In this document: positions 3-35,803 of the stretch, piece after piece
Position numbering within the stretch: position 1 is the stretch's first letter
Layout of the letters: every line of letters starts with the position of its first letter
Source: a virus
DNA: 35,852 nucleotides
Virus record (IMG/VR): IMGVR_UViG_3300025543_000091
Span: 1 to 35,852 of that record
Reading direction: 5' to 3' (one strand)
Made by a program: the position numbers and the translations under genes
The notes under the pieces: model-generated
What the model was told of the DNA's origin: nothing
Database searches by the model: none
The model's input: only the letters and a program-made list of their open reading frames with translations

Positions 3-710
3 ATAGACTGCATGGGTTATCCCAAATCGTACGAAGATTATAATGAAATAGATGTTATCCCTGTTAACTCTGCTCTTGTTAATTTAATACATGAGCCAGG
101 TAATTGGGGAGCATACACGTTTCATCAAGCTACTCCTCATGGGTGGATGTTTGGTATTCCATTACAGACCAGACAAGGTTGGGGTTATTTATATAATAAT
201 AAAATAACTCCTAAAGAAGAAGCTGTAGATTATCTTAAATTTATTATGAAAGATAAATTCAATACTGATTTAAAAGAATTTAGCTTTAAAAATTATTATG
301 CTAAACAATTTATTGATGGACGAATATTAAAAAATGGAAACAAAGCATTATTTTTTGAACCTTTAGAAGCAATTGCAGGAGTGTTTTGGAATCATTGTAA
401 TAGAGCTATGTGGGATGTAGTATTTCAAGGGCACACTGAAGAAGATGCTAATGATAGATTAAAATTAAGAGCGGAAAGCTATATTAATTTTATTAGCTTT
501 ATTTATAAAAATGGATCTAAATTTAATTCTCCTTTTTGGGAAATAACTAAAAAGAAATGCAATAAACATTTAGATAATAGCTATTTGTGGCAAAGGGAAA
601 AAGAATATATATTCAATTATAAACCAGGGGATGAAGTTATGCCTCCTGATTTTATTACCTTTCCATTTGAATTAGACGTTTGGCAAGATTTTATTACTAA
701 GTTTGATTAG
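3..710 (+). CDS. Flavin-dependent (tryptophan-type) halogenase, C-terminal part, truncated by the window edge
   Basis: The frame is open to the left edge (the codons before the first Met read I-D-C), so the true start and the FAD-binding N-terminus lie outside. Seen: IDCMGYP matches the DC(S/T)GF element of PrnA/RebH-type halogenases, followed by GWMFGIPLQTRQGWGYLY, the family's GW.W.IP...R.G.GYV segment, and by FFEPLEAIAGVFW, the equivalent of the FLEPLEST region near the active site. The family uses FADH2, O2 and halide to make a hypohalous species that a lysine in the N-terminal part directs; that lysine cannot be checked here. Viral halogenases of this family are known from marine cyanophages (VirX1). 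The substrate is unknown. It sits just before the virion genes and is a cargo gene rather than a structural one. The family call is secure; catalytic competence is not testable. Confidence 0.85.
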   Translation: MDCMGYPKSYEDYNEIDVIPVNSALVNLIHEPGNWGAYTFHQATPHGWMFGIPLQTRQGWGYLYNNKITPKEEAVDYLKFIMKDKFNTDLKEFSFKNYYAKQFIDGRILKNGNKALFFEPLEAIAGVFWNHCNRAMWDVVFQGHTEEDANDRLKLRAESYINFISFIYKNGSKFNSPFWEITKKKCNKHLDNSYLWQREKEYIFNYKPGDEVMPPDFITFPFELDVWQDFITKFD

Positions 711-736: not shown

Positions 737-2884
737 ATGCCATTAAACTTAATTAATATACGACCTGGCTTTAATAAACAAATTACAGATACTGCAGCAG
801 AAGGTCAGTATGTAGACGGTGATTTTGTTCGTTTTCGCTCAGGATTACCTGAAAAAGTAGGAGGTTGGTCTCAGATTACTACGGATACTTTAATAGGAGT
901 TACTAGACAACAATTTCATTGGGTGGATTTAGATGGTCGTATTTATGCTGCTTTAGCTACTCACAGAGGATTATTTATTTATTATGAGGGAGCTTTTTAT
1001 GATATTACTCCATTAGAAGCAGCTCAATCTGGAGGGACCTTTACTACTAATGGAACAACAACGGTCACTGTTAATTTAAGTGGACATAATCTAAGCCAAG
1101 GAGATATTTTTACTTTTACTTCTGTTACAGCACCTTCTGGTTCTGGGTACACAGATGCAATTTTTGAAAATACTCCATATGAGTGCACAGCTAGACTGAA
1201 CGCAAATCAATTTACCATTACTATGGCAACAGCCGCGTCCAATAGCGGAACATCAGGAGCATGTACTGTTCACCGTTATGTTAAAGCGGGAGAAATTGGT
1301 CAAACATACGGTTATGGTTTTGGTACAGGGTTATGGGGAGGAGCAACAGGAGTTACAAATCAATTAGATGGAGCATTACTTAATGACACTAACGGAACTG
1401 GCGGTGTAGGATCTACTATTGTTGTAGATAGCACAACTGGTTTTCCTTCAGCGGGAGTTATTAAAGTAGATAATGAACTTATTTCTTATACAGGTATTAC
1501 TTCAACAACGCTTACTGGTATTACAAGAGGAGTAAATGGAACTTCTACCGCTGCTCATTCAGATAATACTTCTATTGAAGTATTTACAGGATGGGGAGAA
1601 GCTTCTTTATCTTCTTCAGTGTCCTTAGATCCTGCAAACTGGTCTTTAGATAATTTTGGTCAAATATTAGTTGCAACTATTTACAATGGCAGAACTTTTA
1701 TTTGGCAACCTGTAAACAGTAATCCTTTAGCTTTAACTACAAGAGCTACGATTATGGTAGGAGCACCAACAAAAACAATGATTACGATTACCTCTGATCA
1801 AGACAGACATTTATTTCATTTAGGAACGGAAACTACAATTGGATCTACAAATACTCAAGATAAAATGTTTATTAGATTTTCTGATCAAGAAGATTATTCA
1901 ATTTATGCGCCTACGTCAGTTAACACTGCTGGAACATTTAGACTAGATGATGGAACAGAAATTAGGGCCGCTATACAAGCGAAAGATTATATTTTAGTTA
2001 TAACAGATACCGCAGCATATACCATGCAGTTTGTAGGAGCTCCCTTTACGTTTAGCATTAGAAAAGTTGGATCTAATTGTGGATGTATGGGTCCAAACGC
2101 AGCTGTGTTTAAAGATGGTATTGTTTATTGGATGGACGATTCAGGTGGTTTTAATTATTTTGATGGTACTGTTAAAACTTTAGATTGTTCTGTAGAGGAT
2201 TTTGTATTTACTCAAAACAATCCTGGAGACCTTGGATTAAACTATAATGCAGGTAAACTTGTATATGCCTCTGGGGACTGTTTGTACGGAGAAGTAACCT
2301 GGTTTTACCCTTCCGCAACTTCTTCGGTAGTGAATAGATCAGTCATATTTAACAGACAAGAAAATTGTTGGTTTACAAGTTCTGTTGCTAGAACAACTGC
2401 ACAAGATGCTCATTTATTTGATTTACCTTATAAGACATCTTACAATCCAACAGGAACTTATACGTTTCCTATTGCGCAAGGAGCATCTAATATAAATGGA
2501 TCTAGCACTTTTTGGGAACACGAAACAGGAACTGATCAAAATGAAAATGGAACTATTACTCCTGTGTTAGCTTATGTAGAATCAGGAGATTTTATGTTGC
2601 ATCAAGGTGGAGACGGAGAAGTTTTTACTAAAGTTAGAAGATTCATACCTGATTTTAAAAGACTTACTGGTAATGCACAAATTACTATTAATTTAAAAGA
2701 TTATCCTTCTGATACAGCTACTTCATCCTCTTTAGGACCTTTTTCCATTAATAGTTCTACACAAAAAGTAGATACCAGAGCTAGAGGAAGAGCTGCAAGT
2801 TTAAAAATCGCAAATACATCTTCGGGAGAAACTTGGAGATATGGAACTTTTAGAGCAGATGTACAACCAGACGGTAGACGATAA
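737..2884 (+). CDS. Large virion protein, tail/DNA-stabilisation type
   Basis: A 715-residue protein. The N-terminus (INIRPGFNKQITDTAAEG, then YVDGDFVRFRSGLPEKVGGW) is the recurrent opening of a structural protein found in many marine podo-/siphovirus genomes and reminiscent of P22 gp10-like packaged-DNA stabilisation or head-tail proteins. Two insertions interrupt it: a Thr/Ser-rich beta segment around residues 100-180, and a segment around 215-285 (STIVVDSTTGFPSAG, then IKVDNELISYTGI and TTLTGITRGVNGT) that is a common module in phage tail and fibre proteins. The rest is rich in aromatic beta-strand repeats that would suit a beta-propeller. No membrane segment is seen. Its stop overlaps the next start (TAATG). 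Virion membership is confident; the exact position in the particle is inferred. Confidence 0.8.
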   Translation: MPLNLINIRPGFNKQITDTAAEGQYVDGDFVRFRSGLPEKVGGWSQITTDTLIGVTRQQFHWVDLDGRIYAALATHRGLFIYYEGAFYDITPLEAAQSGGTFTTNGTTTVTVNLSGHNLSQGDIFTFTSVTAPSGSGYTDAIFENTPYECTARLNANQFTITMATAASNSGTSGACTVHRYVKAGEIGQTYGYGFGTGLWGGATGVTNQLDGALLNDTNGTGGVGSTIVVDSTTGFPSAGVIKVDNELISYTGITSTTLTGITRGVNGTSTAAHSDNTSIEVFTGWGEASLSSSVSLDPANWSLDNFGQILVATIYNGRTFIWQPVNSNPLALTTRATIMVGAPTKTMITITSDQDRHLFHLGTETTIGSTNTQDKMFIRFSDQEDYSIYAPTSVNTAGTFRLDDGTEIRAAIQAKDYILVITDTAAYTMQFVGAPFTFSIRKVGSNCGCMGPNAAVFKDGIVYWMDDSGGFNYFDGTVKTLDCSVEDFVFTQNNPGDLGLNYNAGKLVYASGDCLYGEVTWFYPSATSSVVNRSVIFNRQENCWFTSSVARTTAQDAHLFDLPYKTSYNPTGTYTFPIAQGASNINGSSTFWEHETGTDQNENGTITPVLAYVESGDFMLHQGGDGEVFTKVRRFIPDFKRLTGNAQITINLKDYPSDTATSSSLGPFSINSSTQKVDTRARGRAASLKIANTSSGETWRYGTFRADVQPDGRR

Positions 2885-3057
2885 TGGCAAAAATAACTGT
2901 AACAATACCTGATCCTACACCTGTTTACGATTCTACAAATCAACAACAGCAATTGCAGGCATTGGATCAATTAAAAAATCAACTTAACTATACGTTTCAA
3001 GAAGAACTTAAACAGGAAGTAGAAAGAGTAACTTGGTTTGTAATGACGAATAATTAA
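2884..3057 (+). CDS. Small coiled-coil protein of the virion module
   Basis: A 57-residue ORF whose ATG shares bases with the upstream TAA, indicating translational coupling. It has an N-terminal beta-like MAKITVTIPDP, a poly-Gln run (residues 20-23) and a helical, heptad-like C-terminal half (LDQLKNQLNYTFQEELKQEV). Short proteins with this opening recur beside the same large structural gene in marine phages. A structural or assembly role is inferred from position; no enzymatic motif is visible. Confidence 0.75.
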   Translation: MAKITVTIPDPTPVYDSTNQQQQLQALDQLKNQLNYTFQEELKQEVERVTWFVMTNN

Positions 3058-3058
3058 T

Positions 3059-3397
3059 ATGGCAAATATATATAGAAACGCATTTTATAATTTAACTACA
3101 ACGGATAAGACAGATGTTTTTACCTGTCCTGCTGGTTCAAGAGCAATTATTCAAAACATTCAATTAACAAATGAATCAGGAACAACTCAAGTCCAAATTT
3201 ATATTTATGATAATTCTGCAACAACGGAATATGAAATAGCTCATGATAGTGTTAGTGCAAATGAAACTTTAAATATGGCTAAAGGCCCTGTAATATTAGA
3301 AGAAAATGATGTTTTAAGAATTGAAGCTAACGCTGCAAACGTAGTATCAGGGATGGTATCTATATTAGAAATAAATAGATCGGATCAAAATGGCTAA
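3059..3397 (+). CDS. Small beta-rich virion protein
   Basis: 112 residues starting MANIYRNAFYNLTTTDKTDVF, with alternating hydrophobic beta-strands (RAIIQNIQLTNESG, VQIYIYDNS, MVSILEINR) typical of small phage tail or head-decoration beta-sandwiches. It has no Cys-based or catalytic motif. It begins 1 nt after the previous stop and overlaps the next gene by 8 nt, so it belongs to the structural transcript. Function is inferred from context. Confidence 0.8.
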   Translation: MANIYRNAFYNLTTTDKTDVFTCPAGSRAIIQNIQLTNESGTTQVQIYIYDNSATTEYEIAHDSVSANETLNMAKGPVILEENDVLRIEANAANVVSGMVSILEINRSDQNG

Positions 3398-3521
3398 AAA
3401 AGCAAAAGGTTTTGGAGTTAATAATTTTGTTAAAAGTAAAAGAAAGAAAAGACCTGGTAGACATTCGAAGAAACATAAAGGAAGAAAAAAAGGTGGACGA
3501 GGACAGGGGTTTCCGATATAA
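3390..3521 (+). CDS. Tiny, very basic peptide
   Basis: 43 residues, MAKKAKGFGVNNFVKSKRKK followed by RPGRH and further Lys/Arg/Gly-rich sequence. It has almost no acidic residues, so it should bind nucleic acid or an acidic surface. Basic peptides with the same MAKKAK.FGVNNFVK.K..KRPGRH pattern recur in marine phage tail modules. It overlaps the upstream gene by 8 nt. A DNA-condensing or virion-packaged role is a guess; the conserved location supports a real gene. Confidence 0.7.
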   Translation: MAKKAKGFGVNNFVKSKRKKRPGRHSKKHKGRKKGGRGQGFPI

Positions 3522-3527
3522 AGAAGT

Positions 3528-3668
3528 ATGTTTTATATTTGGCATACATTACTAATAGCTTTATTTATATCTATTGGATTTCTATTAGGGTATAAACTAG
3601 GTAATAAAAAACCAAAAACAGAAGAACCTAAAGGCAAGTGTCCCTTTGGTTTTGATCAGGAGAACTAA
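3528..3668 (+). CDS. Single-pass membrane peptide
   Basis: 46 residues with an N-terminal transmembrane helix (residues about 4-23, IWHTLLIALFISIGFLLGY), then a Lys/Glu-rich cytoplasmic-type tail ending KCPFGFDQEN. It is tightly packed between neighbours (6 nt after the previous stop, 2 nt before the next start), with AAAGAAGT upstream as a weak ribosome site. It could be a lysis accessory (spanin/holin class) or an infection-stage membrane protein. Size and topology are all that can be said. Confidence 0.65.
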   Translation: MFYIWHTLLIALFISIGFLLGYKLGNKKPKTEEPKGKCPFGFDQEN

Positions 3669-3670
3669 TA

Positions 3671-3868
3671 ATGAATGTAATTAAAATACCAGCGAAAGCT
3701 GTAGAAATTGTTAAAAATAAAAGAACGGGAGAAGTGTATGCGGATAAGGCTGCATTTGATGCAGATGTAGCAAATCCAGCCACAGATACAACAGCAGATG
3801 ATTTTAGACAAGACTTAGAGATTACAGTTGCTTCTTTACACACTAAAGGTGATACGATAAAAAAATAA
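3671..3868 (+). CDS. Small acidic hypothetical protein
   Basis: 65 residues (MNVIKIPAKAVEIVKNKRTG...). A short N-terminal beta segment is followed by an Asp/Ala/Thr-rich stretch (FDADVANPATDTTADDF) and a C-terminal helix. TCAGGAGAACTAATA upstream supplies a good Shine-Dalgarno. It is not recognised beyond being of the kind seen in phage tail modules. Confidence 0.65.
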   Translation: MNVIKIPAKAVEIVKNKRTGEVYADKAAFDADVANPATDTTADDFRQDLEITVASLHTKGDTIKK

Positions 3869-3871
3869 TTT

Positions 3872-4801
3872 ATGAAACCTATCGGTGGTACGGAGCTACA
3901 GTTCAACCAACTGTATAAATACGTAGATAATAATTTATTAAATCATTTTCAAATTACAACTTCTGTTCCAGAAAAAGAACCTTTATCTAAAGATAAAATA
4001 AATATTCTTTGGGTACAAAATTCATACGACCAACCTAATGTGGCTCCATGGATGAAAGATAAATCTAATCATGATAAGTATGATTGGTACGTGTTTAATA
4101 GTCATTGGTGTTGTGAAAAATATAGAATGATGTTTGAACTACCAGCACAAAAATGCACTGTAATTAAAAATGCAATTGATCAATTTTATGGTAGAGCGGT
4201 TTATCAAAAAGGACAACCCGTAAAAATATTATTTACATCAACTCCTTGGAGAGGATTAAATGTTTTACTAGGAGCAATGCAATTAATTAAAAACCCTTTA
4301 ATTAGTTGTGATGTTTACTCTTCAACTAAAATTTATGGATCATCTTTTGATGAGGCAAATAAAAATTTGTATGAACCATTATTTGAACAAGCAAGACAAA
4401 TTAAAAATGTTAATTATCTTGGATTTGCTAGTAATGAAACAATTTTAAAAAGTATTACTAATTACCATCTTTATGTTTATCCTAATATTTGGGAAGAAAC
4501 TTCATGTATATCTGCTATAGAAGCATTAGCTCATGGACTATATGGAATAGTCACTAACTACGGAGCGTTATATGAAACTTGTTCAGAATGGCCTCTTTAT
4601 GTTCAATATCAAAGTGATTACAAAATGTTAGCACAACATTTTGCCTATGCAATAGAAGGTATTGTAGATCAATTACATCAACCAGGTATGCAAGAATTAT
4701 TAACCTCACAACAAATGTTTTATAAAAAATTTTATAATTGGGAAAATAGGAAGCATGAATGGACTAACTTTTTACAAGGAGTCTTAAATGCAAAATCATG
4801 A
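3872..4801 (+). CDS. GT-B glycosyltransferase (GT4-like)
   Basis: 309 residues. It starts MKPIGGTELQ, the glycine-rich GG loop of GT-B enzymes, and ends with a nucleotide-sugar site PNIWEETSCISAIEALAHG, an E-x7-E motif typical of GT4/group 1 transferases. Between them are KILFTSTPWRGL (start of the second Rossmann domain) and VNYLGF. It should transfer a sugar from an NDP-sugar to an unknown acceptor. It overlaps a second glycosyltransferase by 14 nt and lies inside the virion gene block, suggesting modification of virion protein, phage DNA or host surface glycans. No membrane anchor. The N-terminal domain is shorter than usual for GT4 enzymes. Confidence 0.82.
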   Translation: MKPIGGTELQFNQLYKYVDNNLLNHFQITTSVPEKEPLSKDKINILWVQNSYDQPNVAPWMKDKSNHDKYDWYVFNSHWCCEKYRMMFELPAQKCTVIKNAIDQFYGRAVYQKGQPVKILFTSTPWRGLNVLLGAMQLIKNPLISCDVYSSTKIYGSSFDEANKNLYEPLFEQARQIKNVNYLGFASNETILKSITNYHLYVYPNIWEETSCISAIEALAHGLYGIVTNYGALYETCSEWPLYVQYQSDYKMLAQHFAYAIEGIVDQLHQPGMQELLTSQQMFYKKFYNWENRKHEWTNFLQGVLNAKS

Positions 4802-5603
4802 ACCTATATGGTTTAATCAAGAACAACGGCCACAGGACACTAAGGAAGCTGGATACAGTTTGTTTGTAGCAACTCCTGTGCACGATCAATGTTCTATTCA
4901 TTACACACAATCTTTATTAGAATTACAAAAACATTGTTTTAAAAAAAATGTAAAAATACGGTTTCAAATTATGAAGTCTTCTTTAGTGACTCAAGGAAGA
5001 AATATGTGTGTATCTGGTTTTTTACAATCAAACGCAACTCATTTATTATTTATTGATTCAGACATTGCATTTAATTCTGGTGCAGCAGAAAGATTAGTAG
5101 CTTGTGATAAAGATGTAATATCTATTCCTTATCCTTTAAAAGATATAAATTGGGATAAAGGAATACATATGTTTAAAGAAGGAAAAATAAAAGAAGCAAA
5201 AGATTTGCGTAATAAAGCTTTTTATAGATATCCTATGAAAGTAGATAACAATAATGAAATTAAAATTAAAGATGGAGTTATAGAGGTAACTCATTCTCCT
5301 ACAGGTTTTATGTTAATTAAAAGAGAAGTTATTCTTAAAATGATTGAAGCTTATCCTAATTTAAGAATAGATCAAGATCAAGTTGTTAATGGTAAAAACG
5401 AAAGATTACCTCATATGTGGAACTTTTTTGATACTCAATTTGACCCTGAAAAACATACTTACCTAGGTGAAGATTTTGCTTTTTGTAAGAGATGGAAAGA
5501 TATAGGTGGCAAATGCCATGCTTGGATTATGGATTATATTACTCATGTTGGGGAACATCAGTATACAGGTCGTTTTGCGGATGAGTTGATAAAGACCGAC
5601 TAA
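4788..5603 (+). CDS. GT-A glycosyltransferase (GT2-like)
   Basis: 271 residues. LFVATPVHDQCSIHYTQSLL is a nucleotide-sugar transferase opening. LVTQGRNMCVSGFLQSNATH leads into HLLFIDSDIAF, whose DSD (residues 90-92) is the metal-binding DxD of GT-A enzymes. Later YLGEDFAFCKRWKDIGGKCH is the acceptor-side ED.....R motif. The start has a GGAG 8 nt upstream and lies inside the upstream gene. Paired with the GT4-like gene it probably forms a two-step glycosylation unit; acceptor and sugar cannot be read from sequence. Confidence 0.82.
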   Translation: MQNHEPIWFNQEQRPQDTKEAGYSLFVATPVHDQCSIHYTQSLLELQKHCFKKNVKIRFQIMKSSLVTQGRNMCVSGFLQSNATHLLFIDSDIAFNSGAAERLVACDKDVISIPYPLKDINWDKGIHMFKEGKIKEAKDLRNKAFYRYPMKVDNNNEIKIKDGVIEVTHSPTGFMLIKREVILKMIEAYPNLRIDQDQVVNGKNERLPHMWNFFDTQFDPEKHTYLGEDFAFCKRWKDIGGKCHAWIMDYITHVGEHQYTGRFADELIKTD

Positions 5604-5649
5604 AATGGTAATATTTTAAAGTTATATAACAATTACAGGAGCTACAAAA

Positions 5650-6648
5650 TTGGATCCATTTACTATAGCGATAGCCGCATTCGGTATTCAGAAATTAAGA
5701 GGTAAATCTACAAATAGAGCCTTGAGAGATGCTTTAATTGCAGGAAGCTTAGGACAAGCTGGAGCAATGGCAGGCGTTGGTGGATTACAAGGTTTTGGAG
5801 GCTATGGTCTTCAAGGAGCTACTTTAGGACAACAGTTTATGAATACAGCACCTATGCAAGGTATTGGTGCGTTGTTTGGAAAAACACCTGGTACTACCCC
5901 TGTACCAGCTTCACAAGTGGGAGTAACCGATCCTGCTAAATTAAAACAATTAATGACTAGTGAATTTAATCAAAATGCAGCGGGTGGAAATATTTTAGGT
6001 CGAGCATATGAAGGATTTAAAGGATTACCTACAGCAGCTAAAGTAGGTATCGGTGCAGCAACCATTCCTTTAATCGGTGATTTTTTTAGTGGAGACGATA
6101 AAGAAAAAATGTATTTACCAACTCCTAATAAAGCTTATTCTAAATTTGCAAAATCAGGATTACCTGGATCGCCTACAGGATTTTACACAAGAGATTATAG
6201 TACAGGTCAGGATACAGCAATTGCAGATCCATCAACTTATCGAACAGTAGAAGAAGTTTTAGGAGATGAACCTACGCAAAATTTTAAAGCCGTAGAGTAC
6301 AATCAAGGGGGTTTAGCTAGTATTGCAAGATTTAATGAAGGTGGACAAGTCTTACCTTCTAAATTTACTCATGATGAAAACGATATAAATAATTATCAAA
6401 GAGCAAATGGTTTTGTTATGGATGGAACTGGAAATGGTAAAGATCATGAAGACACTATGTTAGCTCAACTTGCTGATGGAGAATTTGTATCTAGATCGCA
6501 TGCAGTTTTAGGTGCGGGGATTATTGCTGGCGCAAATATTAGAGATAAAAAAGATCAAAGAAAAAAAGGAGCGGAGTTCTTTTATGAACAACAAAAACGT
6601 TTTAAAAGAATTTATGATTTAATTAATGCAAACAAAACAGAACATTAA
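5650..6648 (+). CDS. Virion-associated protein with LADGEFV motif; TTG start
   Basis: 332 residues. The best start is TTG at 5650, preceded by AGGAG (5637-5641) at 8-nt spacing and giving M-DPFTIAIAAFGIQ. The N-terminal half is Gly/Ala/Gln-rich with weakly hydrophobic segments. The C-terminal half carries YNQGGLASIARFNEGGQV and then TMLAQLADGEFVSRSHAV and LGAG; the (L/A).DGEF(V) segment is seen in many marine phage proteins near tail and internal-protein genes. It overlaps the next gene by 23 nt. A role in the virion or ejection apparatus is inferred from context. Confidence 0.7.
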   Translation: MDPFTIAIAAFGIQKLRGKSTNRALRDALIAGSLGQAGAMAGVGGLQGFGGYGLQGATLGQQFMNTAPMQGIGALFGKTPGTTPVPASQVGVTDPAKLKQLMTSEFNQNAAGGNILGRAYEGFKGLPTAAKVGIGAATIPLIGDFFSGDDKEKMYLPTPNKAYSKFAKSGLPGSPTGFYTRDYSTGQDTAIADPSTYRTVEEVLGDEPTQNFKAVEYNQGGLASIARFNEGGQVLPSKFTHDENDINNYQRANGFVMDGTGNGKDHEDTMLAQLADGEFVSRSHAVLGAGIIAGANIRDKKDQRKKGAEFFYEQQKRFKRIYDLINANKTEH

Positions 6649-7087
6649 ACAAGATCCAGTAGCTGTAATACCTATTTATCCTAATGAAATAGATAAGTAT
6701 TGGGGACTAGTACATTTTTTAATTGCAGAAGCTCTTAAATATGGAGGATCATATGCAAATCCAAATCATATTAAAGAAGAATTGGAAAAAGATCGTATGC
6801 AATTATTTATTATGTTTGGTGAAGATAGTGATGGAGAAAACAAAGTATTTGGATGTATGACAACTAGAATATTTCAAAATCCTAATTTTAAAGAATTACA
6901 AGCATGTATTTGTACAGGTAAAAAAATGGAATTATGGATTGATAGTTTAATTGTTGCATTAGAAAAATTTGCAAAAAATAATGATTGTAAAAGAATTTGT
7001 ATGCTTGGAAGACCAGGATATAAAAAATTTGTATCTAATTATGGTTGGAAAGTTAAACATTACGAGTATCAAAAGGAGATTAAATAG
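6626..7087 (+). CDS. GNAT-like acetyltransferase-fold protein
   Basis: 153 residues. The alternating pattern LFIMFGEDS..NKVFGCMTTRI, KMELWIDSLIVALEKFAKNN, then CKRICMLGRPGYKKFVSNYG and WK resembles the GNAT fold: a beta-hairpin, a long helix, and the final 'G..KF....G(W/F)K' element. The pyrophosphate-binding Q/R-x-x-G-x-G/A loop is not obvious (the equivalent region reads CTGKKMELW), so catalysis is uncertain. Phages carry similar proteins next to internal virion genes. It could be an inactive structural derivative. Confidence 0.6.
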   Translation: MQTKQNIKQDPVAVIPIYPNEIDKYWGLVHFLIAEALKYGGSYANPNHIKEELEKDRMQLFIMFGEDSDGENKVFGCMTTRIFQNPNFKELQACICTGKKMELWIDSLIVALEKFAKNNDCKRICMLGRPGYKKFVSNYGWKVKHYEYQKEIK

Positions 7088-7996
7088 ATGAGTTTATTTG
7101 GAGGAGGAGGGGGTGGCGGAAGTTCTGTTCCTGCGGTTACTACACAATATGTAAGAGAAGCACCAGGGATAGAAGAACGAAAACTTGGGTTGATGGATAT
7201 AGCTTCACAGCTATCTCAAAAACCGATTAACATTCCTGCGTTACAGGTTTCTCCTTTAAGTGCATTAGAACAACAAGGAATTACTGCATCTGGAACAACA
7301 GGAGTAGGAGCTCCTACTGTTCAAGCAGGTCTGGGTTCTTTATTACAAGCACAACAAGCAGCCGCTTTAGATCCTACATCATCACAATTTCAAGCTTATA
7401 TGAATCCTTATCAAACAAATGTATTAGATGAAATTGCAAGACAGGGACAAATACAACAACAAAGATTAGCAGGACAAGCAATTACTTCTGGTGCATTTGG
7501 TGGTGGAAGAGAAGGTGTTCAACAAGCAGAATTACAAGGACAGATTTTAAGACAACAAGGATTAGCACAACAACAAGCTGTTAACCAAGCAATGCAAGCG
7601 TTCCAACAAAACCAAGCCTTGCAGGCACAAACAGGAATACAAACAGGTCAGTTGATGGGTCAATTAGGTGCTCAACAACAATCAATGGCTCAAGGAGACA
7701 TTAATCAATTAATGGCAGCGGGTGGATTACAAAGACAATTAGGTCAACAAGCTTTAGATGCTGCTAGACAAACAGAACTACAAAGATCTTACGAACCATA
7801 TCAAAGAGCAGAGTTTCTTAAAAATATTTATGCAGCGGGTCCTACAACTCAGTCTACAGTTACTCAATCAACTCAACCTGGTGGTACCAATCCATTAGCA
7901 CAAGCTGCAGGAGCAGGATTAGGTGCTTACGCAACTTATTCTGCATTACAAAGACAACCTGCTGCAACACAGACAGCAGTATCATACGCGAGGTAA
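7088..7996 (+). CDS. Gln/Ala-rich virion protein
   Basis: 302 residues with a seven-Gly run near the N-terminus (GGGGGGGSS), then long Gln/Ala-rich helices (residues about 90-240, such as QQQRLAGQAITSGAFGGG and QAMQAFQQNQALQAQTG) that would form extended coiled coils. Ribosome site AGGAG lies 11 nt upstream. Similar Q-rich proteins sit just before the giant internal proteins in marine podophage-like genomes, so a tail-needle, internal-core or ejection component is likely. No enzymatic motif. Confidence 0.72.
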   Translation: MSLFGGGGGGGSSVPAVTTQYVREAPGIEERKLGLMDIASQLSQKPINIPALQVSPLSALEQQGITASGTTGVGAPTVQAGLGSLLQAQQAAALDPTSSQFQAYMNPYQTNVLDEIARQGQIQQQRLAGQAITSGAFGGGREGVQQAELQGQILRQQGLAQQQAVNQAMQAFQQNQALQAQTGIQTGQLMGQLGAQQQSMAQGDINQLMAAGGLQRQLGQQALDAARQTELQRSYEPYQRAEFLKNIYAAGPTTQSTVTQSTQPGGTNPLAQAAGAGLGAYATYSALQRQPAATQTAVSYAR

Positions 7997-14734: not shown

Positions 14735-14782
14735 TTATTTTATATTAATAAAATCAAGCTCTTCTTCAGTCCAAGGCCACAT
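14735..14782 (-). CDS. Candidate 15-residue micropeptide coupled to Hsp20
   Basis: An ORF reading MWPWTEEELDFINIK begins on the last base pair of the Hsp20 stop (TAATG). It has the same coupling geometry as the other genes of this operon, and two Trp residues make it unlike random AT-rich sequence. It is too short for statistical support and could be fortuitous; it may also act as a leader that sets translation through the following hairpin. Confidence 0.35.
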   Translation of the reverse strand: MWPWTEEELDFINIK

Positions 14783-15204
14783 TATTTAACCTTGATTTCC
14801 TGAGCTTTTATTTCTTCTGGTTCATTAACACCTAATTTAACTGTTAATACACCGTCTTCCATTTTAGCTTCATCTACAACAACATCATTTCTCAATGAAA
14901 ATTGTTTAAAGAATTTTCTAGCTGCAAGACCTTTTTCGATATATTCTTTTTCCTTGTCATCTACTTGACCAGCAACAGTTAATATACCATCTTTGTATTC
15001 AACTTTGATATTCTTTTTATTGAATCCAGCTAAACCTAGTTCAATTCCGTACTCACCTTTTCCGTATTTTACCACATTGTAAAATGGAAACGATTGTACT
15101 TTTGATAAATTCATAAACATTTCGTCAAATGAATCACCAAATAATGTGTTTGATTTATTCCAAAGATCTTTTTGGAATTTGTTAATTATATCTAAACCTG
15201 TCAT
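14782..15204 (-). CDS. Small heat-shock protein, Hsp20/alpha-crystallin family
   Basis: 140 residues. The alpha-crystallin domain spans about 40-130: FPFYNVVKYGKGEYGIELGL, AGFNKKNIKVEYKDGILTV, then GLAARKFFKQFSLRNDVVV and DGVLTVKLG. This is the IbpA-type strand order with the conserved A-x-x-x-F-x-x-x-F-x-L and G-x-L-x-V motifs. The C-terminus EIKAQEIKVK contains an I-x-V-like tail motif for oligomer contacts. AGGAGG lies 6 nt before the start, behind a good promoter. Hsp20 is a recurring cargo gene in marine phages, probably holding structural or replication proteins in soluble form during infection. It is the first gene of a minus-strand operon. Confidence 0.92.
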   Translation of the reverse strand: MTGLDIINKFQKDLWNKSNTLFGDSFDEMFMNLSKVQSFPFYNVVKYGKGEYGIELGLAGFNKKNIKVEYKDGILTVAGQVDDKEKEYIEKGLAARKFFKQFSLRNDVVVDEAKMEDGVLTVKLGVNEPEEIKAQEIKVK

Positions 15205-18335: not shown

Positions 18336-19877
18336 ATGGAGTCGCTAGATTTTTTTAGCGACCTATTCGGTGGATTAGACTCTGCTTACGGTACCTACGA
18401 GCTAAATGGGGCTCGTAGGTCCGATGGTAAAGCTGAAGGAAAGGCATTTACTAAGAAAGGCGCTGTAACAAAAGAATTATTCCTGAAACACCTCAAAGGT
18501 GAATTGTCTTTAGGTATTGTACCGATCATGAAAGACAATAACTGTAAGTGGGGATGTATTGATGTAGATAAATATAATTTAGATATTACATCTACAATTA
18601 AGAAAATTAGAGATAATAATATTCCTTTATTTCCATACAGATCTAAATCTGGTGGATTACATTTATTCTTACATATTGATGGAGTCATACCTGCATCGGA
18701 TATGATTTCTAAATTAACAGAGATTGCTGGTGTACTTGGTTTTGGAGATTGTGAAATATTTCCTAAACAAAGAACCATTAATGTAGAATTAGGAACTATT
18801 GGTAATTGGTTAAATCTTCCTTATCACAATGCAGAGATGACCATGCGTTACGCAATAAACGATAACGGCCACTCAATACCTATTGATGCATTAGAAGCAG
18901 CAGTAAAAAAATATTTAATTAAACCAGAAGATTTTTACAAGATAGAAGCAAAATTAGAACATGCGAATGATGATATGTTTAATGAGTATCCTCCATGTGT
19001 TCAAGCATTTATGACACAATCTATGGAAGCAGGAGGTCGTAACGAAGCTTTATTTAACGTAGGTGTCTGTATGATTAAGAAGTTAGGTAAAGATGGTGCA
19101 TGGGAAAATGATCTTCATGAAGTAAATAAAAATTGGGGAGAGAATGCATTACCTGCAAATGAAATTAAGAATACTATTATTAAATCTTTAAATAAAGAAA
19201 AGGAATATAATTACAAATGTAATACACCACCTGCAAAAAGATTTTGTAATCAAGACTTATGCATCAAAAGAAAATTAGGTATTGGTAAAGGTAACTATAG
19301 TTTTTCTGTAGACTCCTTTCAAAAGATAAATACCAAACCACCTAAATATATTTTAACGATAGATAAAAAACCTGTAAGACTTACAGGACAACAGTTGTGT
19401 CAGCAACAATTATTAAAAACAGAATTGTTTGATACAGATATTGTTTGGAAAACTATGGAGAAGGAACAATTTCATCTATGGTTAAATTATTTAAAATCAA
19501 TTCAAACAGATGTAGAGGGATATGACTTTACCGATGATGATAAAGATGAATTTCAATATTTGTTTAAAAACTTTATTGATGACAATCAAGTTGCAGATCA
19601 TATTACTCAAACACAAACTGATTATGTTTATGAAGAAAACAATTATTTATTTTTTAGAGCAGAAATATTTAAAAAGTTTTTAAAAAAAGAAGGTCAGAAC
19701 TTAAAGGCATCTGAAGTTAAAGAAATGTTAATTGATAATGGTGCAGAATATATTCGTAAGCACGGTGATTATACTGCAAGATTATGGAAGATACCTAAAC
19801 CTAAACTAGAGGATATTAAAGATCGAAATGTTAGATTCGACAAAAAACTCCCATCGTTTGACCCAGATAACCAATAA
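18336..19877 (+). CDS. Primase of the archaeo-eukaryotic primase (AEP) superfamily
   Basis: 513 residues. WGCIDVDKY carries the metal pair D76/D78, and YRSKSGGLHLFLHID carries the S/G-x-H motif (H109). EIFPKQ and LGNWLNLPYHN-like elements follow, as in prophage and TOTE-type primases. The middle (RNEALFNVGVCMIKKLGKDG; NEIKNTIIKSLNKEKEY) looks like a PriCT-type helical domain, followed by CNTPPAKRFCNQDLC, a Cys cluster. It should lay primers for the family A polymerase. No Walker A motif is present, so it is not a primase-helicase fusion; the helicase is the next gene. Overlaps that gene by 50 nt. Confidence 0.85.
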   Translation: MESLDFFSDLFGGLDSAYGTYELNGARRSDGKAEGKAFTKKGAVTKELFLKHLKGELSLGIVPIMKDNNCKWGCIDVDKYNLDITSTIKKIRDNNIPLFPYRSKSGGLHLFLHIDGVIPASDMISKLTEIAGVLGFGDCEIFPKQRTINVELGTIGNWLNLPYHNAEMTMRYAINDNGHSIPIDALEAAVKKYLIKPEDFYKIEAKLEHANDDMFNEYPPCVQAFMTQSMEAGGRNEALFNVGVCMIKKLGKDGAWENDLHEVNKNWGENALPANEIKNTIIKSLNKEKEYNYKCNTPPAKRFCNQDLCIKRKLGIGKGNYSFSVDSFQKINTKPPKYILTIDKKPVRLTGQQLCQQQLLKTELFDTDIVWKTMEKEQFHLWLNYLKSIQTDVEGYDFTDDDKDEFQYLFKNFIDDNQVADHITQTQTDYVYEENNYLFFRAEIFKKFLKKEGQNLKASEVKEMLIDNGAEYIRKHGDYTARLWKIPKPKLEDIKDRNVRFDKKLPSFDPDNQ

Positions 19878-26848: not shown

Positions 26849-27058
26849 ATGGACATTAATAAATGGAAAAGTGTTGCTGTAAAAAAAGAAACGCACACAC
26901 TTTTAACCGCACTCTGCACTATCAAAGAAAGGAATCCAGCGCGAATGATATCCAAACTGGTCAATGATTATGTAGAAATACTTGCAAAAAAGAACAAGCG
27001 ATCGTTAGATGCTTATCGAAAGGAACTTCTTAAAAAAGGTTCTGATGCAATTAAGTAA
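26849..27058 (+). CDS. Ribbon-helix-helix-like small protein
   Basis: 69 residues. KWKSVAVKKETHTLLTALCT is a beta strand plus helix, followed by IKERNPARMISKLVNDYVEI; this strand-helix-helix layout, with a K-x-x-x-H/Y-x-x-L pattern, is that of RHH DNA-binding proteins (CopG/MetJ class). It may dimerise and act as a transcription regulator of nearby operators. AAGGAG precedes the start. It overlaps the GIY-YIG gene by 14 nt. Confidence 0.65.
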   Translation: MDINKWKSVAVKKETHTLLTALCTIKERNPARMISKLVNDYVEILAKKNKRSLDAYRKELLKKGSDAIK

Positions 27059-27563
27059 AATAAAAGATATATCGAATTGTACGGTGAATATCATTGAAGA
27101 TAATCAACCTGGGGTTTATTTTCTTTTTGATAAGGATAAAAAACTTATTTACATTGGAGAAAGTAAATTCCCTTTGATTCGAATACTCGATCATTATCAT
27201 AAACATTATAAAATTCAGAAAGTGGGTGGTCGGCGATCTGGCTTTCAACAAAAAGGTATTGGTCCTGTATTTCATTATTTTAGAACAATGCATGTACAAT
27301 CCGAAGATTATAGAATCCGACAACATTATGAAAAGCGATGGATCCGAAAATATGATCCACCTTTAAATTATAATACGAGAGCACTTGGTTATGATTTATC
27401 TTGGAAAGAAATTAATTCTTTTATTCATGTGTATGAATCTTTTTTTAAAGCACAGATGACTTGGTCTCGTTATTTAAATGATGAAGTGTGTGCGAAAAGA
27501 GAAAGTTACATTACATTGAAAGCAAGAAAAAGAAAATTACGATATAACGCAACAGGGAGGTAG
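27045..27563 (+). CDS. GIY-YIG family nuclease
   Basis: 172 residues from ATG 27045. GVYFLFDKDKKLIYIGES is the GIY...YIG pair (here GVY and YIG), followed by a catalytic-type Arg (PLIRILDH), then YEKRWIRKYDPPLNYN, the Glu-x(n)-P-P-L-N element that supplies the metal Glu and Asn of GIY-YIG domains. Basic C-terminus (KARKRKLRYN). No separate DNA-binding domain like I-TevI, so it is a compact nuclease; it may act in host DNA breakdown, repair or homing. Confidence 0.82.
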   Translation: MQLSKIKDISNCTVNIIEDNQPGVYFLFDKDKKLIYIGESKFPLIRILDHYHKHYKIQKVGGRRSGFQQKGIGPVFHYFRTMHVQSEDYRIRQHYEKRWIRKYDPPLNYNTRALGYDLSWKEINSFIHVYESFFKAQMTWSRYLNDEVCAKRESYITLKARKRKLRYNATGR

Positions 27564-34244: not shown

Positions 34245-34295
34245 CGGCTATCCCCACCCCCCTTTTGCTTGATTTATGGTACCAGCGACGAAGAC

Positions 34296-34323
34296 TTTAC
34301 AGTCGATTACATACATGTATAGT
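34296..34323 (+). promoter_or_regulatory. Promoter candidate for terL
   Basis: TTTACA (34296-34301), 16-nt spacer, TATAGT (34318-34323). The ATG at 34337 is 14 nt further with no Shine-Dalgarno between. Confidence 0.5.
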
Positions 34324-34336
34324 ATGCAAAATAGAT

Positions 34337-35803
34337 ATGTCGCACGAATTACTTACAACTGAACAGTTGCGCGATAGAGTAGAAAAAGTATACATCGAAC
34401 ACATTAAACTGTGCCAAGATAATTTTTTGTATTTTGTTCAAACTGTTTGGCCAGATTTTATTTGTAGAAAAGAAAAGGACCCAAAGAAATGGGGCCACCA
34501 TCAACATATTGCCGACGAACTTACTAAAATTTCAAAAGGTTTGAATAAGAGGCTCATTGTGAATATGCCACCACGTCATACAAAATCAGAGTTTGCATCT
34601 TATCTATTCCCAGCTTGGTTTATAGGGAAGTTTCCTAAGAAAAAAATTATGCAGGTATCTCACAACGCAGAACTTGCAGGAAGGTTCGGAAGTAAGGTTC
34701 GTAACTTAATTGATAGTCCAGAGTATAAACAGATCTTCGGAGATGTTAAACTACGAGAAGATAGTAAGGCAAAAGGCCGATGGGAGACCAATCATGGTGG
34801 GGAATATTTTGCAGCGGGTGTAGGCGGTTCTATCACAGGACGAGGGGCGGACTTACTTATTATCGACGATCCACATACCGAACAAGACTCATTATCGGAT
34901 AATGCTATGGAGAGAGCATATGACTGGTACAATTCAGGACCCAGACAACGTTTGCAACCAGGAGGAACCATTGTCGTTGTTATGACCCGTTGGGCTCAAG
35001 ACGATATTACAGGAAGACTCATCCAAGCACAAAGTGAACCTAAAGCGGATAAATGGAAGTTAATAGAATTTCCTGCCATCTTGAAATCAGGAAACCCTGT
35101 TTGGCCAGAGTATTGGTCACTCGAAGAACTAGAAGGTGTTAAGGCATCTATCTCACCTAAAAACTGGAATGCACAGTACATGCAGGACCCAGTGGCCGAG
35201 GAAGGTGCAATCTTAAAACGTGAATGGTGGCAGCCTTGGAAAGGACAGGTTCCAGATTTAAAACATATTATCCAAAGTTATGATACAGCATTTTCTAAAA
35301 AAGAAACTGCAGACTATTCTGCGATTACGACATGGGGGATATTTGAACCTAGTCCAGGGGAGAATGCTTTAATTTTATTAGACGCAGAAAAAGGTCGTTG
35401 GGATTTTCCAGAACTAAAAGCAGTCGCTATGGAAGCATATAAGTATTGGGAACCAGAGTCCATTATTGTAGAGGCAAAGGCCACTGGCCAACCGCTCATT
35501 CAAGAGATGCGTAGAGCAGGTATTCCTGTAATGGATTTCGTACCTACCCGTGGTAAAGATAAACATTCTAGAGTAAATGCTTGTGCTCCTGTATTTGAGT
35601 CAGGTAATGTTTACTATCCTCATGGAGAGCATTTTGCAGAGGAAGTTATTGAAGAATGCGCAGCATTTCCTTATGGCGATCATGATGACTTAGTCGATTC
35701 AATGACTCAGGCTGTTATGCGATTTAGACAAGGAGGCCTAATCCCCCATCCAGAAGATTATAGAGACGAAGAGATTATAAAAACTAAGAAGGTTTATTAT
35801 TAA
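34337..35803 (+). CDS. terL: Terminase large subunit
   Basis: 488 residues from ATG 34337 (a 24-codon extension to 34265 would run through the promoter and hairpin). ATPase: NMPPRHTKSE (Walker A, K83/S84), VSHNAELAGRFG, LLIIDDPHTEQD (Walker B D177/D178) and VVMTRWAQDDITGR (motif III). Nuclease (RNase H fold): SYDTAFSKKETADYSAITTW, IIVEAKATGQPL, and HDDLVDSMTQAVM with its acidic residues. It belongs to the phage terminase family with the 'PPRHTKS' P-loop. It packages DNA into the procapsid with TerS. The next gene starts on its stop. Confidence 0.95.
   Translation: MSHELLTTEQLRDRVEKVYIEHIKLCQDNFLYFVQTVWPDFICRKEKDPKKWGHHQHIADELTKISKGLNKRLIVNMPPRHTKSEFASYLFPAWFIGKFPKKKIMQVSHNAELAGRFGSKVRNLIDSPEYKQIFGDVKLREDSKAKGRWETNHGGEYFAAGVGGSITGRGADLLIIDDPHTEQDSLSDNAMERAYDWYNSGPRQRLQPGGTIVVVMTRWAQDDITGRLIQAQSEPKADKWKLIEFPAILKSGNPVWPEYWSLEELEGVKASISPKNWNAQYMQDPVAEEGAILKREWWQPWKGQVPDLKHIIQSYDTAFSKKETADYSAITTWGIFEPSPGENALILLDAEKGRWDFPELKAVAMEAYKYWEPESIIVEAKATGQPLIQEMRRAGIPVMDFVPTRGKDKHSRVNACAPVFESGNVYYPHGEHFAEEVIEECAAFPYGDHDDLVDSMTQAVMRFRQGGLIPHPEDYRDEEIIKTKKVYY

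Follow-up and report, generated by a model that had tools for sequence, protein, structure and literature searches.

The halogenase locus and its phage

The window analysed here is a virus record of 35,852 bases from a marine phage, and it begins with the C-terminal part of a compact flavin-dependent halogenase (FDH) gene (3-710, + strand), the 5' end of which is cut by the contig edge. Directly downstream lies a virion structural gene (737-2884, +; PHROG_3287, E 3e-72), followed by a stretch (3018-3658, +) that, by blastn and Pfam, is replaced in a relative, L002, by ~1.6 kb in which two genes for 2OG-Fe(II) oxygenases lie (PF13640 and PF13759). Beyond this are a GT1 glycosyltransferase gene (3872-4801, +; PF00534 above cut-off, PHROG_2170) and a glycosyltransferase-like gene (4788-5603, +), which matches Anp1 below cut-off and PHROG_1574, a family with no assigned function. 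At the right end is the gene for the terminase large subunit (34265-35803, +). The window also carries an Hsp20 small heat-shock protein gene (14782-15204, -; PF00011, E 5e-15), a primase (18336-19877, +) matching the AEP primase domain of TOTE conflict systems (PF22548), two adjacent FkbM-type methyltransferase genes (PF05050; 21664-23012, +) in the replication module just before the DNA polymerase, and a GIY-YIG endonuclease-like gene (27009-27563, +; 25.3 bits against a Pfam cut-off of 22.6).

Identity to Pelagibacter phage HTVC023P is 76% for the terminase, 56% for the DNA polymerase (PolA) and 59% for the virion gene. Judged by these genes, the carrier is a fragment of an HTVC023P-type pelagiphage, a podovirus, and not a cyanophage. 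Two cultured members of this type, of 57.6 and 60.9 kb, were isolated on SAR11. Genes for 2OG-Fe(II) oxygenases, 'ferrochelatases' and glycosyltransferases have been described in these phages (PMC9599517), and in those parts of the literature available to our search no paper linked a halogenase to them. A search of the phage collection for a close DNA relative of the window found none.

The gene fragment and its full-length relative

The open reading frame starts at base 3 and encodes 235 amino acids and a stop. It corresponds to residues 152-386 plus stop in L002 numbering, about the last 60% of the gene; fragment residue 1 aligns with residue 152 of the 386 amino acid L002 protein, and the ATG at position 12 is internal. 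The fragment matches the Pfam family Trp_halogenase (PF04820) at 63.3 bits (cut-off 21; E 2.5e-17), PHROG_2928 'tryptophan halogenase' (E 8e-47) and solved tryptophan halogenases (best E 9.7e-8; VirX1 E 3.5e-5), so that by homology its membership of the FDH family is far beyond chance. There is a single halogenase copy within the virus record. The missing N-terminus was sought at the right end of the window and is absent there; the record stops just past the terminase, and the 49 bases behind this gene resemble the beginning of a further ORF.

A scan of IMG/VR with the window fragment returned one locus, L002 (10.5 kb), whose halogenase is 89% identical across the whole fragment. At the DNA level (blastn) the two align at 82.6% from window base 1 across the halogenase and into the gene behind it, with two further blocks reaching window base 4156. 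A defective or spurious ORF at the end of a contig would likewise begin at the edge and lack an N-terminus, but L002, an independent contig, has the relative at full length and followed by the same virion gene, and dN/dS between the two halogenases is 0.13, indicating purifying selection. These two results rule out a contig-edge artefact, which we regard as extremely improbable, and by the same comparisons ORF 3-710 is confirmed as a fragment of a real FDH-family gene.

The full-length L002 gene (L002:4971-6131) encodes an intact GxGxxG motif (GVGTVG) and a lysine, K73, that aligns with the catalytic K79 of RebH and PrnA (RebH K79 is chain position 99 in the structure entry used, which has 20 extra residues). 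Both positions lie outside the window fragment and are read in the 89%-identical relative, not in the window itself. Loss of Lys79 abolishes the activity of PrnA (PMC9764358). In EPLEA the second Glu takes the aligned place of RebH E357 and PrnA E346; this residue, E273, is present in both L002 and the window, where its codon occupies positions 366-368. An AlphaFold2 model of the L002 protein (pLDDT 93.8) has flavin-dependent halogenases as all 50 of its best PDB matches (query TM 0.69-0.78). The sequence-only reading had proposed a phage-encoded flavin halogenase, next to virion genes and near two glycosyltransferases, and had asked that GxGxxG and the catalytic Lys be checked in the missing N-terminus. 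Its family assignment and placement stand, with the second neighbour best called glycosyltransferase-like, and both N-terminal features are found in L002.

A compact branch of phage halogenases

An alignment query of the compact type found at least 122 loci in IMG/VR, 80 of which were kept, with 34-49% identity outside L002. The same query against the genomes of 84,980 bacterial and archaeal species gave 3 loci, a lower bound, as the search depends on short peptide patterns. Most compact halogenases among these 83 loci are 381-396 amino acids long, and other members score 110-128 bits against PF04820. The full-length protein has matches in 61 records of the phage collection, most of them from cyanophages, and the long type represented by Syn1 in 82. 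Tryptophan halogenase genes have also been reported in 20 of 153 cyanophage genomes (PMC10452541). A maximum-likelihood tree separates 76 compact proteins from 18 others (17 long FDHs and that of Campylobacter phage CP21, 399 amino acids on a very long branch) with split support of 100/99; since the tree is midpoint-rooted, compact and long are a split and not a proven clade. VirX1 falls among the long FDHs, on the opposite side from the compact proteins. These numbers correct the earlier remark that a halogenase next to virion genes is rare in a phage genome, as the gene is not rare in marine phages, and the tree speaks against VirX1 as a near relative.

The branch appears viral-dominated, as judged from these searches. 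A strictly viral origin was considered and rejected, as divergent members lie on three bacterial MAG contigs (L175, L176 and L177, from Polyangiaceae and two unclassified bacteria). No phage genes were seen next to these three halogenases, whose surroundings look chromosomal, and no 2OG oxygenases were found among the flanking proteins scanned.

Motifs and missing segments

Among 67 distinct compact proteins, all three glycines of GxGxxG and the catalytic Lys are invariant, and the Glu at the PrnA E346 place is found in 53 and missing from 14. Two other FDH motifs are altered. GWMFGIP in the window (141-161, +) is the compact form of WxWxIP, reading W-M-F-G-I-P, with the second W replaced by F; W-x-F-x-[IVL]-P occurs in all 67, whereas the long phage FDHs listed, VirX1 included, keep WxW. 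The tunnel and active-site motif, placed by sequence and alignments, is FFEPLEAIAG (351-380, +). It departs from a strict Fx.Px.Sx.G in that S is replaced by A, as in 67 of 67 compact proteins, and the G comes one place later, while the FX[DE]PX[EFL] pattern (defined in PMC8407142) is present as FFEPLE. Variants or absence of WxWxIP are known in some FDHs, and Fx.Px.Sx.G, including variants with a charged residue for G, has been reported in all active FDHs (PMC8407142). The altered Fx.Px.Sx.G motif therefore raises real doubt about the chemistry, which, given both changes, could have shifted in the compact branch.

Profile comparison with solved FDHs shows where the compact proteins are shorter. 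From compact positions 84 to 87 the alignment jumps from LooH 109 to 178, leaving LooH 110-177 unmatched, and the match ends at LooH 445 of 550 with the remainder unmatched. The first-sphere tryptophan residues of PrnA are 100-103 and 443-459 (PMC9764358), and in the profile alignment, which is a sequence alignment and not a structural superposition, they fall in the two segments without a compact counterpart. This absence makes free tryptophan an improbable substrate and points rather to something bulkier presented at an open active site, and as a statement about substrate the name 'tryptophan halogenase' is unsupported. No solved FDH has a sequence match to the final ~50 residues of the compact proteins, and a different pocket may form there.

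Oxygenase neighbours and a halogenase-oxygenase fusion

In the 80 loci with a relative of the virion gene, the slot just upstream, occupied here by the halogenase, is variable. The nearer relatives mostly carry small 2OG-Fe(II)-like genes in it, and the four closest have a 175 amino acid gene of this kind. Besides L002, the only one of the 80 with a halogenase nearby is L051, an HTVC023P-like contig with a long-type (Syn1-like) gene (L051:4432-5562) near the same virion gene. Of 119 proteins flanking compact halogenases, 29 match PF13640 and 22 match PF13759. The density of oxygenase-like genes is 0.61 per kb within 2 kb and 0.17 at 4-6 kb, pooled over iterated HMMs and over loci that are not all independent; HMM families B-E overlap heavily (drift in the 2OG superfamily), and the results used are family A, the Pfam tally and this pooled density. 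An oxygenase gene and the halogenase gene after it share 4 bases in L103-L105 and L111, the stop of the first overlapping the start of the second. The telling neighbours of the compact halogenase, on this gene content, are 2OG-Fe(II) oxygenases rather than glycosyltransferases.

Several loci hold more than one FDH: L118 has four, L107, L128 and L165 have three, and L132 has two compact genes in tandem. In the first four of these loci (in L118 at 924-7176) one FDH is compact and the rest are long, amid several 2OG oxygenases, and L107, L128 and L165 also carry GroEL/GroES-like genes. At L132:4820-7179 (the tandem pair) and L127:5525-7149 the first halogenase follows an M15-type endopeptidase-like gene. 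A weak DUF6065 match (L002:2896-3651) and similar-looking genes at L118:10070-11520 are both found near halogenase and oxygenases. A Trp-rich W-repeat motif showed no enrichment around halogenases: ORFs containing it occur in 22 of 67 loci that have a halogenase and in 47 of 79 that lack one, and a Trp-rich tail protein was rejected as substrate on these counts.

In two loci the compact halogenase is fused in frame to a C-terminal domain of ~220 amino acids (L168:5992-7962 and L170:5992-7947), the two fusion proteins being 52% identical. This domain is 36-40% identical (E about 1e-40) to the product of the L002 gene two places upstream of the halogenase (L002:4205-4756); another relative, HTVC023P gp67 (L003:44301-44921), is 36% identical. 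The family carries the label 'ferrochelatase', through PHROGs 2954/3531 and HTVC023P gp67, and a Pfam search with it gave no match. Its alignment has invariant H96-x-D98, H143 and R145, and the structure predicted for it (pLDDT 92.5) finds its matches among prolyl hydroxylases (P. putida P4H, Dictyostelium PHD and human PHD2). By predicted fold and invariant residues the family is therefore assigned as a 2OG-Fe(II)-type oxygenase. The 'ferrochelatase' annotation, and the iron or haem reading built on it (PMC9599517), looks wrong on this model, which suggests that the 'ferrochelatase' genes of HTVC023P-type pelagiphages encode 2OG-type oxygenases and not haem enzymes.

Possible function of the compact halogenase

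Our preferred reading, to which we give a probability of about 0.6, is that the compact FDH is cargo of an HTVC023P-type pelagiphage and a halogenase that acts together with 2OG oxygenases, its substrate being something other than tryptophan and probably bulky. The gene would be carried at a variable virion-module site that in related phages is occupied by 2OG-Fe(II) oxygenase genes. At the flavin site, FADH2 (presumably from the host), O2 and halide would yield hypohalous acid, which would travel to the conserved K73 beside Glu273 and halogenate an electron-rich group, and the prolyl-hydroxylase-like 2OG oxygenase would act on the same substrate. That the enzyme halogenates seems quite probable. 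The repeated linkage and the twofold fusion suggest that both enzymes act on one substrate, a view we lean towards slightly; the oxygenase neighbourhood could instead reflect a cargo hotspot and not a pathway, as in most related phages oxygenases occupy this slot and no halogenase accompanies them. That this substrate is a protein is doubtful. A bolder version, in which halogenase and fused oxygenase carry out a two-step oxidative modification of a protein made on ribosomes, the likeliest being a tail or virion protein of the phage (or else a target on the host surface), is unlikely as matters stand. If true, it would be virus-encoded post-translational halogenation, and the loci that combine as many as four FDHs with several 2OG oxygenases would represent the system in elaborate form.

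Two other explanations bear on the same observations. The gene may simply be ordinary auxiliary metabolic cargo, its halogenase modifying a small free molecule of host metabolism (tryptophan, indole or another aromatic) and functionally unconnected with the oxygenases. Its closest solved relatives are tryptophan halogenases, phage annotations give it that name, VirX1 takes many small aromatics (PMC8407142), and some compact members sit in non-virion neighbourhoods, as in S-MS29, where the gene lies between gp33 and a helicase loader. The lack of any counterpart to the segments with the PrnA tryptophan contacts and the fusion to, and enrichment of, 2OG oxygenases make this explanation rather unlikely. 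It is also conceivable that the flavin enzyme no longer halogenates, and that with its altered WxFxIP and FxEPxEAxxG it has become a monooxygenase or oxidase that shares a substrate with the 2OG enzymes and hydroxylates it. WxWxIP, a motif credited with preventing monooxygenation, is altered in the whole compact branch, Fx.Px.Sx.G is not strictly kept, and the gene sits among hydroxylating enzymes. Yet the Lys, essential in PrnA (PMC9764358), is found in every compact protein, most members retain the acidic residue, the F in place of the second W is still aromatic and FX[DE]PX[EFL] is present, so that a loss of halogenation in favour of hydroxylation seems improbable.

The compact branch narrows the question of what phage 'tryptophan halogenases', noticed earlier in cyanomyoviruses, act on, being common, viral-dominated, without the grip on free tryptophan and fused to an oxygenase resembling protein hydroxylases. 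If active, compact FDHs would be unusually small halogenases with an open site, of interest for biocatalysis. The branch is large and apparently undescribed: in the open-access literature we found no paper on it as such, nor on the missing segments, the fusion or the four-FDH loci, which is weak evidence, and short phage tryptophan halogenases had already been listed by length (PMC3037559).

Comparison with known halogenases

Annotated in phages for a long time, tryptophan halogenase is a recurrent gene of cyanomyoviruses (PMC2984593, PMC3037559), and the roles published for it are speculative (PMC2984593). Closest in kind to the window gene are the 'tryptophan halogenases' (388 amino acids) of the Synechococcus phages S-SSM5 and S-MS29, which are compact, 39-40% identical over 100% of their length and carry the corresponding WMFGIP and EPIEA motifs. 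These phages are cyanomyoviruses (Kyanoviridae), and their gene lies beside gp33, unlike the virion and oxygenase site of the window phage. We know of no activity or biochemistry for these two halogenases or for any other compact member.

The halogenase of Pelagibacter phage HTVC008M is likewise an FDH in a SAR11 phage, and adjoins a dioxygenase and a packaging gene; it differs in being of the long type (464 amino acids), in belonging to a myovirus (a pelagimyophage) and in lying on the other side of the tree. VirX1, the FDH of cyanophage Syn10 (PDB 6qgm), has been characterised and accepts many small aromatics (PMC8407142). It shares GxGxxG, the catalytic Lys and EPLE, but has 531 amino acids, keeps WxWxIP and FxxPxxSxG and belongs to the long side of the tree; by this split and these motifs it was rejected as a direct model of the window halogenase. 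PrnA, RebH, PyrH, Thal and LooH share the fold (query TM 0.69-0.78), the Rossmann motif, Lys79 and the Glu346 place, with 15-20% identity in structural matches, but are more than 100 amino acids longer and carry the two tryptophan-contact segments that the compact form lacks.
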